A stretch of DNA of 64,000 nucleotides. Source: Flavimarina sp. Hel_I_48 (GTDB lineage: Bacteria > Bacteroidota > Bacteroidia > Flavobacteriales > Flavobacteriaceae). The position numbers were made by a program, and so were the translations under genes. Below the pieces are notes generated by a model. It did no database searches. It was not told where the DNA came from and was given only the letters and a program-made list of their open reading frames with translations. This document shows, one piece after another, positions 23,852-26,797 of this stretch. Position 1 is the stretch's first letter. Each line of letters starts with the position of its first letter. Where the stretch lies: positions 186,001 through 250,000 of the forward strand of contig NZ_JPOL01000003.1 in the NCBI RefSeq assembly GCF_000733945.1, in the 5' to 3' direction.

Positions 23852-24373
23852 ATGGAAAATTGGATCTATGCGGCTTTTCCTATTCTCGTCAAGGTACTTG
23901 TATCCATTCTGGTCATATTTTCTATTATTATAATTATAACCCGTATTTCAGGACTGAGAACTTTTGCTAAAATGTCAAGTTTTGATTTCGCTTCTACAAT
24001 AGCTATTGGATCAATACTTGCTGCGGTAGTAATGAACACAGGGCAATCTATGGTAAAGGGAGCTATTGCTTTAGGAGGCATTGTAGCCTTTCAATCGATA
24101 TTTTCACTGGCCATACGAAAGTCTGAAAAATTGAAGCAGCTTTTTACGAATACGCCAATGCTTCTAATGAAGGATGGAGTAATTATTTATAAAAACCTTG
24201 AGAAAACGAACGTAGGGGAAGATGACCTGATCGCAAAGTTAAGAGAGGCGAATGTAACCGATTTTAGTCAGGTGCTTGCAGTGGTTCTCGAATCAACGGG
24301 AGATATGTCAGTATTGCATTCTGACAGTGAGAAACTTATGCCCAAAATATTACAGGGCGTAAGAGAAGAATAA
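23852..24373 (+). CDS. DUF421 (YetF-like) membrane protein
   Basis: This 173-residue protein has three N-terminal membrane helices (about residues 8-30, 45-62, 68-88) and a cytosolic domain. The motif RISGLRTFAKMSSFDFASTIAIGS is shared with YetF/DUF421 proteins, and PMLLMKDGVIIYKNLEK begins the soluble YetF C-terminal domain. Family members appear in spore and stress membranes, with unknown activity. It is slightly shorter than the usual 200-230 residues at the C-terminus. A DUF1328 gene follows. Confidence 0.88.
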   Translation: MENWIYAAFPILVKVLVSILVIFSIIIIITRISGLRTFAKMSSFDFASTIAIGSILAAVVMNTGQSMVKGAIALGGIVAFQSIFSLAIRKSEKLKQLFTNTPMLLMKDGVIIYKNLEKTNVGEDDLIAKLREANVTDFSQVLAVVLESTGDMSVLHSDSEKLMPKILQGVREE

Positions 24374-24748: not shown

Positions 24749-24778
24749 AAAAAGCCTGCATTTAGTGCAGGCTTTTTG
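24749..24778. terminator. Bidirectional intrinsic terminator
   Basis: AAAAGCCTGCA and TGCAGGCTTTT form an 11-bp stem with A and T runs outside, between the convergent DUF1328 and DUF2254 genes. Confidence 0.9.
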
Positions 24779-24815: not shown

Positions 24816-25970
24816 TTAATCGATCTTTTTACCTTCGGAATAAGAATCAATCTCACGTGAATGGCCATTTATAATATCTTGCATGCGCTTTAAATATTCC
24901 ACAAGCATAGGATCTTCCTTCAAGTAATTTTCCAACTCCATAAAGCAATAATGGTATAATGTATCAAAGGCAACGATCTTAAAAAAGAATCGATGCTTCC
25001 CTACCCCATAAGAATTGAAGTCAGCAATTTGTTTTCTTTCCAGAAAAAGTTGTGTTAGATAATCCAAAGCCGTGAGTGCTGTTCCAGGATCGTTAATCGC
25101 CGGGGACATCGCCTTGACCGCTATCTCAACAAGATGTTTGAAGCCTGTTTCCGGGACTTCCAGGGGTACGTTATGATCTACTGGTAAAATAGTCCTTAAA
25201 CGTAAAGGAGTAGCTTTATCAAATGATCCCCACACTAATGCAAGCGCCTCCCCTTTTAAAACAAAAGTGCCTGGAAGCTTTAATAATTTGACGGATACTT
25301 CCTTTTTTAGACAAAAATGATTGATCTGATTGAGATTCGGCATTTTTAGATAACCCGCTTTGTCAGCCCTTACTATATTCGCCTTTGAAGCATCAGGGTC
25401 TTCCATTACTTTAAGGGCATTCTGCTTCTTTTTTAGATCATCAAGAATCCCCATAGATTCTATAAAAGCCTCTTTTACGATATAATTGATATGTATACTT
25501 TGTGAAACGCTGTGAATAAAGTAGATAAAAAGTATTACGCATACAATGCCGAAAATAATTCCCAGAGGTGCTCCTATTCCCGGAAAATAGTCAAGTTTTT
25601 CCGCATTAATACCTATAGAAAGTACCATACAATAAATGATGGTACCACTGGTAATCCCAAGGATCAGCTGATGGTGCTTTTCCCCCAGGATCATAGGGAT
25701 CAACCGCGGCGAATAATTATTTATGTTCCGGTTGAGAACGTTCATTACCATCGTATAACTAAAAACGGTCAGCGTGAACACGCCACCTATCAGGAAAGCG
25801 AGTACGGACTGCACGTCTTCTTTAGTGCTAAAACTTATCTTTTCAAGAACAGGTGCGTTTTCAAAATCAATTCCACAATACAATAGAATTATAGCAAGGA
25901 GCAAAAAAGATAGCGCCAGTACCGAAGGTACCAGCGCTATACTGTTTAAAATGCGTTTAATGTATTTCAT
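24816..25970 (-). CDS. DUF2254 membrane protein coupled to the rhodopsin
   Basis: This 384-residue protein has four N-terminal membrane helices (roughly residues 10-32, 55-76, 103-123, 132-153) and a soluble C-terminal half. The KAMSPAINDPGTALTALDYL segment near residue 290 is characteristic of DUF2254. Its ATG shares an A with the rhodopsin stop (TAATG), so the two proteins are translationally coupled and probably made in proportion. The function of the family is unknown. Coupling to a light-driven chloride pump suggests a role in ion movement or in sensing the resulting gradient, which is inference. Confidence 0.87.
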   Translation of the reverse strand: MKYIKRILNSIALVPSVLALSFLLLAIILLYCGIDFENAPVLEKISFSTKEDVQSVLAFLIGGVFTLTVFSYTMVMNVLNRNINNYSPRLIPMILGEKHHQLILGITSGTIIYCMVLSIGINAEKLDYFPGIGAPLGIIFGIVCVILFIYFIHSVSQSIHINYIVKEAFIESMGILDDLKKKQNALKVMEDPDASKANIVRADKAGYLKMPNLNQINHFCLKKEVSVKLLKLPGTFVLKGEALALVWGSFDKATPLRLRTILPVDHNVPLEVPETGFKHLVEIAVKAMSPAINDPGTALTALDYLTQLFLERKQIADFNSYGVGKHRFFFKIVAFDTLYHYCFMELENYLKEDPMLVEYLKRMQDIINGHSREIDSYSEGKKID

Positions 25971-26797
25971 TAAATTTCACTCTCTACTACCGTGGCGATA
26001 GGTGCACGTCCCAGTACTTTTAAAGCTGGTAAATGACCTGCATTGGCACTTTGGTCTAATGCAATATAAGTTATCATGAGTCCGTAGATCACTTTACTTG
26101 AAATATCTGCGATGGTAAAAAGAAGTTGACGTAATACAACGCCGTCTGCGGAATTCATAAATACGGGAACAAGGTAGGCAATAGGATATAGCGTCCATGC
26201 AAACATCATCAACCAGAACACTTTCATAATTGTCTTTGGTCCTTTGCCGGTCATTGTTTTTTTACCTTCAGCAATAGATTTTCCCACGATAAAGTTCATG
26301 ATAACGAAGAAAACGGTACTAATTGCGCCCCATAGCATAAGATTGCCGGTATCGCTAACTTCATAAAGTTGGCCCACATATCCTGTAAGGATCATTCCCC
26401 ATGCTGAAAGTATAAGCCATACCGCTTTAGATTTCAAAACACTACTCGATAAGTTAAGCACAATAAGAAGTTGTACTAAAAGACATGGTATGGTAACCAT
26501 CCAATTGACGTAGCGATAGCCATTGCTAAAAGTCAGCTTCTCCAGACTGTAAACTGTGCCATTAAATTTAAATGCATCTGTCCACATACCTGCCTGGCTT
26601 ACCAGTATAAGACCGGCAGAAACCATTACGATGCAAGAAAGAGCTGTTGCAACCCGATATTTAGGAGCGACAAATTGGGACATTACAAGGAAGAAGACCA
26701 GCGCCGCTAAATGGGCACCCACCCCCATTGTTAATAAATGATCGATGGCCTCAAACTGGCCAACGGTGTAATCAAATAAATTCTCGATATTTTTCAT
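25970..26797 (-). CDS. Light-driven chloride pump rhodopsin (NTQ type)
   Basis: The ATG at 26797 gives 275 residues with seven membrane helices. Helix C reads RYVNWMVTIPCLLVQ, giving the motif N98, T102, Q109; helix G holds D231 and the retinal Schiff-base lysine K235 (DISSKVIYG). These numbers equal those I recall for the Nonlabens marinus chloride pump (NM-R3). Sodium pumps have NDQ and proton pumps have D-T-E, so inward chloride transport is the best call. L106, at the spectral-tuning site, suggests green rather than blue absorption. Retinal synthesis genes are not in the window. A DUF2254 gene overlaps its stop. Confidence 0.95.
   Translation of the reverse strand: MKNIENLFDYTVGQFEAIDHLLTMGVGAHLAALVFFLVMSQFVAPKYRVATALSCIVMVSAGLILVSQAGMWTDAFKFNGTVYSLEKLTFSNGYRYVNWMVTIPCLLVQLLIVLNLSSSVLKSKAVWLILSAWGMILTGYVGQLYEVSDTGNLMLWGAISTVFFVIMNFIVGKSIAEGKKTMTGKGPKTIMKVFWLMMFAWTLYPIAYLVPVFMNSADGVVLRQLLFTIADISSKVIYGLMITYIALDQSANAGHLPALKVLGRAPIATVVESEI

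Follow-up and report, generated by a model that had tools for sequence, protein, structure and literature searches.

A short DUF2254 membrane protein gene follows the chloride-pump rhodopsin gene in two Bacteroidota classes and carries a conserved predicted hairpin in flavobacteria

The closest described system is the chloride pump NM-R3 of N. marinus (PDB 5fjg, 5b2n), which has the NTQ motif, is represented by many solved structures in the PDB and is clearly related to the chloride-pump rhodopsin (ClR) of the locus studied here. In the open-licence literature, we found no paper that mentions a DUF2254 partner of NM-R3; in genome G312, which encodes a protein 100% identical to the N. marinus ClR (272 aa), a short DUF2254 gene lies 1 nt downstream. 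Conserved gene partners exist elsewhere among rhodopsins: heliorhodopsin is reportedly paired with glutamine synthetase. Flotillin-associated rhodopsins likewise have a conserved partner (PMC10308929, partial text); both cases concern other rhodopsin families and other partners.

As to DUF2254, one salmonellosis paper is said to name it. The family is in part a predicted knot (PMC11184937, partial text). Within the open-licence literature, no paper title gives a function for COG4325, PF10011 or DUF2254 and no paper brings DUF2254 together with a rhodopsin, so the pair is apparently unreported.

The gene blh has been described next to ClR in two strains, including N. spongiae (PMC5932025, partial text); in genome G323, which encodes the same DUF2254 protein as the N. 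spongiae entry, this gene sits between ClR and blh. The ClR gene neighbourhood was not found in the available part of PMC4831467. Our loci resemble rhodopsin-blh operons in that blh/BCD, the gene of the retinal-making beta-carotene dioxygenase, comes next after DUF2254 in 9 of 18 ClR loci (Pfam-confirmed in three), and differ from them in the unrelated membrane protein that is encoded between. New here is the predicted intragenic hairpin.

The window, that is, the whole stretch of 64,000 nucleotides analysed from Flavimarina sp. Hel_I_48, holds the following features:

25970..26797, minus strand: predicted chloride-pump rhodopsin ClR, 275 aa (PF01036, NTQ motif, PDB match)
24816..25970, minus strand: short-form DUF2254, 384 aa (PF10011, hydropathy, short clade in the tree)
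25968..25972, minus strand: TAATG, overlap of the ClR stop and the DUF2254 start
25910..25940, minus strand: predicted RNA hairpin within DUF2254 (CDS nt 31-61), 14-bp stem, loop of 3 as scanned
25903..25908, minus strand: run of six U 3' of the DUF2254 hairpin
24749..24777, minus strand: terminator-like hairpin and T run 3' of DUF2254 (consensus scan)

The stop codon TAA of ClR (25972-25970) and the ATG of DUF2254 (25970-25968) have one base in common on the minus strand. A preliminary description of this DNA had reported this overlap, the extent of the DUF2254 gene and a chloride pump upstream of it; the first two are correct and the third is borne out by the NTQ motif and the structural match. 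The rhodopsin is a Bac_rhodopsin (PF01036, E 4.5e-49 with Pfam), its third-helix motif reads N98-T102-Q109, the retinal-binding lysine is K235, and the PDB entry that it matches best is 5fjg, a chloride-pumping rhodopsin (E 2.8e-128); we predict an inward light-driven chloride pump. The second protein matches PF10011 with E 2.6e-66 over profile positions 2-362 of 368, scoring 224.3 bits against a cut-off of 28.8. Its hydropathy profile displays four hydrophobic segments followed by a C-terminal part of about 220 residues, and the alignment places conserved polar residues in and after the second segment and around the fourth. The hairpin at 24749..24777 is the probable end of the ClR-DUF2254 transcription unit. 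A blh remnant was looked for in the window and none was found. The source genome (4.14 Mb, 4 contigs) has one rhodopsin, and a second, longer DUF2254 elsewhere.

Short-form DUF2254 lies directly downstream of ClR, on the same strand, in 17 of 18 ClR genomes from Flavobacteriaceae and Saprospirales; these genomes are related and the counts not independent, so a Fisher value of 1e-15 overstates independence. Besides the window's own, nine came from a ClR search of named genomes (L063-L071: Pricia, two Nonlabens, Aequorivita, two Saprospiraceae MAGs, two Neolewinella and one Lewinella), six Nonlabens and one Neolewinella from whole-genus searches, and one of the window's own genus (G719) from a DUF2254-led search. 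This last route favours the pair; leaving G719 out, the count is 16/17, window included. The G719 ClR shares 99.3% identity with a protein from Leeuwenhoekiella, which is therefore probably the genus of G719 and of the window. Only Neolewinella maritima (L068) departs from the pattern: besides ClR it has long-form DUF2254 and is without the short form.

Gaps between the two genes are -1 nt in three pairs, 0 in one, +1 in six, +3 in one, +6 in four, +7 in one and 74 nt in one (L066), which puts 16 of the 17 pairs between -1 and +7 nt. The one-base overlap occurs in three (TAATG in the window and L107, TAGTG in L102), and the conserved feature is tight same-strand spacing, not the overlap as such. 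Short stop-start overlaps are common in bacteria, so the overlap alone is weak evidence; the evidence is the recurrence. The pair spans two Bacteroidota classes, one of them Saprospiria, and at least five genera, between which the flanking genes differ. It is therefore no peculiarity of this one genome, and the pairing is not chance.

Gene content agrees with gene order. Among 23 Nonlabens genomes, short DUF2254 is present in exactly the 8 that have ClR; in the Neolewinella genus, 4 of the 5 genomes with ClR have it and none of the 16 without. In a protein collection, 41 of the 112 ClR clusters that state a contig size match a short-DUF2254 cluster by exactly equal size, against 0.3 with shifted sizes; this is a lower bound, for the best 120 of each list were compared and 119 short-DUF2254 clusters state a size. 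The collection adds Psychroserpens and Gangjinia, where ClR and short DUF2254 share a contig (adjacency not seen). Between ClR distances and DUF2254 distances the correlation is r 0.88 over 49 pairs and 0.63 in 34 close pairs; controlling for the long paralogue leaves a partial correlation of 0.79 (nine genomes).

A random family sample is a poor test of such a pair: the ClR profile matched 1 of 397 Flavobacteriaceae genomes, the window's own, 2 of 248 in the Saprospiraceae sample and 1 of 28 in the Aequorivita genus. The first contig scan of named genomes was itself incomplete, recovering 2 of the 8 Nonlabens ClRs seen later. Viral contigs yielded no ClR relatives and plasmids two remote rhodopsins only; upstream of ClR, a search for promoter motifs gave nothing consistent.

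It could be that the pair formed once and was kept by common inheritance or joint transfer, with no functional need. The relatedness of the genomes, the fast evolution of DUF2254 (32-47% identical to the window copy, against 61-80% for ClR) and its missing short form in N. maritima are in keeping with this. We nevertheless consider it very unlikely, as the pair outlasted the loss of every other common neighbour across two classes, co-occurs near-exactly in two genera and is under codon-level constraint at the join, described below.

The preliminary description had asked whether the partner goes with ClR and not with other pumps, and in the loci examined it does. Against 17 of 18 for ClR, DUF2254 is beside none of 15 sodium pumps (NaR, NDQ) and none of 39 proton-pump (DTE) loci, with about 1.5 kb on each side covered for most loci and less at contig ends; the single DTK rhodopsin locus is also without an adjacent DUF2254. 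L065 has a NaR gene on the opposite strand, 2.4 kb away from its ClR-linked DUF2254, which was not scored as adjacency. Two Neolewinella loci have NaR followed directly by BCD, with no DUF2254 between, from which we take tight coupling to be usual in rhodopsin operons, DUF2254 occurring only at ClR. Typing of the 30 best rhodopsin loci in the 299-genome family sample gave 1 NTQ, 3 NDQ and 26 DTE; in that sample both families are present in 16 genomes, where one pair is adjacent and the next nearest is about 18 kb apart (G176). The latter is a DUF2254 fragment (G176:C10:236260-236610, L073) at that distance from a sodium-pump gene, and no ClR was found in G176.

Short DUF2254 also exists apart from ClR. 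Seven genomes have it with no adjacent ClR (G144, G172, G236, G274, G289, G605, G722); two of these, G605 and G722, belong to the window's own genus, and G605 is without any ClR. The preliminary description had named orthologues mostly unlinked to rhodopsins as part of what would refute a partnership, and in the 299-genome sample this is indeed the case: full-length short DUF2254 is found in 6 genomes, with only the window's copy beside a rhodopsin. The implication runs one way: ClR nearly always comes with short DUF2254, and the presence of short DUF2254 does not entail ClR.

A quick tree separates the short form, as a single clade, from the long form with 100% SH-aLRT support; row L033 is on a very long branch. 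Most unlinked short copies form a subclade (support 80), and those of G144 and G605 nest among the linked ones, a position as after ClR loss. ClR remnants were looked for beside unlinked short DUF2254 (L076-L079, L169-L171) and none were found, nor was there a common context among nine proteins, mostly neighbours of unlinked DUF2254. The long form has the same Pfam domain along its length and is present in all 18 ClR genomes; it is longer (424-477 aa versus 375-404 aa) and was not seen downstream of ClR. In G323 (L107, L166), ClR stands between both forms, the short one downstream and the long one divergently upstream. Long DUF2254 adjoins a LETM1-like gene, so called from a Pfam run for one protein, in eight genomes of the window's genus and in another one from the family (L147-L152, L048, L156, L043); within the stretch covered, this is not shown for the window's genome. 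Such a neighbour gives a weak hint at ion homeostasis for the long paralogue.

A terminator scan found the window hairpin, a 14-bp stem and U run inside DUF2254. Folded in context, it reaches -29.4 kcal/mol (z -5.1; z -5.6 against synonymous shuffles). A strong hairpin is present at the same codons (~10-22), encoding S-[IV]-A-L-[LV]-P-x-x-[IL]-A-L-x-F, in 12 of 12 flavobacterial pairs, with z from -2.75 to -8.3 versus synonymous shuffles, at most 2 of 200 of which are as low, and a T-rich tail follows 3' in 11 of the 12. It has the form of an intrinsic terminator: G+C-rich stem, short loop, U run. The ten outer stem pairs are formed in 95% of the cells scored, against 10-54% for slid registers. 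Among 310 windows, the one at codons 11-23 shows the strongest synonymous conservation, with 0.758 where the median is 0.41 (based on 11 of the 12 sequences), and both alanine codons are GCG in 24 of 24 instances, GCG making up 14.5-21% of alanine codons nearby. Within the first 45 codons, a dG of -16 kcal/mol or lower is found in 11 of 12 pairs versus 19 of 335 other genes, and together with a T-rich tail in 10 of 12 versus 4 of 335; among these four are the ClR gene of G323 and L078, an unlinked DUF2254 with a start that was probably placed too far upstream.

In G144 and G605, the unlinked copies encode SIALIPSVLALCF at this place, nearly the same peptide as the linked pairs, and are without the hairpin. 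A covariance model run over 732,816 bases gave 62-76 bits to the 12 training pairs and 27-31 bits to the G144 and G605 homologues; remaining matches were weaker, e.g. reverse strands of the same sites. Rfam had no match at the DUF2254 hairpin, its sub-threshold matches all being at the downstream terminator. The element is not universal, as no hairpin stands out in the four Lewinellaceae pairs. The 74-nt gap of L066, a Saprospiraceae MAG, holds an unrelated 17-bp terminator-like hairpin with U run (L066:10830-10870; -24.1 kcal/mol, z -3.2).

Instead of an RNA hairpin, what is conserved might be a signal for codon speed or a DNA site, in which two AGCGCT palindromes lie 21 bp apart. Both hexamers are intact in 8 of the 12 pairs, GCG is a minority codon, and two-sided covariation is weak (one pair, 3 cells, equalled in 431 of 500 shuffles). 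For a DNA site, one would have to accept that four pairs (those of the window, L063, L067 and L142) have an altered hexamer and keep the stem all the same, partly via G-U pairs, that the T-rich tail 3' of the stem is present in 11 of 12, and that the L066 gap has an unrelated hairpin with its U run. We judge this explanation quite unlikely, and the element looks like an attenuator that would make DUF2254 scarcer than ClR. Internal-operon terminators (PMC10450193, partial text) and the hairpins of the puf operon (PMC7509114, partial text) are known to set unequal expression within an operon; the present hairpin differs from them in being predicted only, and in lying within the downstream coding sequence.

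This bears on the amounts of the two proteins, which the preliminary description had expected to be matched. That expectation is not borne out: with the terminator-like hairpin in 12 of 12 flavobacterial pairs and a GTG or TTG start inferred for DUF2254 in 8 of 17 (starts as called, not measured), less DUF2254 than ClR would be made. Matched production is what one would want if DUF2254 were needed in stoichiometric amounts for ClR to assemble, fold or form oligomers. The tight spacing in 16 of 17 pairs and the correlated distances suit that role, to which we assign a low probability in view of the suggested unequal amounts and of the many PDB entries of crystallised N. marinus ClR, present there as a rhodopsin chain. 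Those crystal proteins were reportedly made in E. coli without the partner.

We now propose a two-gene operon in which an inward ClR is joined to a dedicated, low-copy effector, the short DUF2254, kept scarce by the hairpin; we put the probability of this reading at about 0.6. Many transcripts would end, or gain stability, at the hairpin just within DUF2254, giving much ClR and little DUF2254. A ribosome finishing ClR may re-initiate at the overlapping start and soon cover or melt the hairpin, which begins 30 nt (about ten codons) downstream. With its start at or next to the ClR stop, DUF2254 production would depend on ongoing translation of ClR and stay at a lower ratio.

In each photocycle a pump moves about one ion, and a channel passes many; for this reason, a low-dose partner would more readily be a channel, a gate or a regulator than a 1:1 subunit. 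The version of the effector that we deem most likely is a path or gate that would release or balance the charge built up by the pump. One channel could serve very many slow pumps, which would account for the low dose, and the four hydrophobic segments with their conserved polar residues are compatible with a transport path. The full proposal, that short DUF2254 is a charge-balancing channel or chloride-release gate whose small dose is set by an attenuator in its own coding sequence, opened by ribosomes coming from ClR, is tentative and on the whole unlikely. A profile search of the PDB with DUF2254 gave a best E of 0.058, set aside as noise, and no credible relative among PDB entries.

A non-conducting DUF2254 could instead sense chloride, turgor or membrane potential and tune ClR or signal its output. 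We allow this a modest chance: roughly 220 residues come after the hydrophobic segments, a low dose suits a regulator and the long paralogue occurs without ClR, but neither Pfam nor the PDB profile reveals a known sensor or output domain in DUF2254.

No reason for inward chloride pumping in marine bacteria is known to be settled. A membrane partner that is near-obligate and specific to ClR offers a direct handle on this question, and the well-studied pump beside it gives DUF2254, a family without assigned role, its first functional anchor. The intragenic hairpin is a concrete predicted dosage switch, and predicts a partner working at low copy number. If the channel or gate reading were true, DUF2254 would add a new family of channels, with members in both bacteria and archaea.

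Other genes recur around these loci. A BLUF blue-light sensor gene (PF04940; 22632-23060, minus strand) is near the window ClR. In 5 of 18 loci (the window, L065 of the L063 series, L163, L164 and L165) the distance between ClR and a BLUF relative is at most about 10 kb, and such relatives also stand beside NaR in several Nonlabens. A gene for a YetF-type DUF421 membrane protein (23852-24373, plus strand in the window) is near the pair in 3 of 18 loci (the window, L063 and L065). The Aequorivita ClR gene (L067:10001-10140) has a frameshift at a T run, from decay or sequencing error. Finally, two proteins of the ClR clade, P0199 and P0205, have NTE in place of NTQ.
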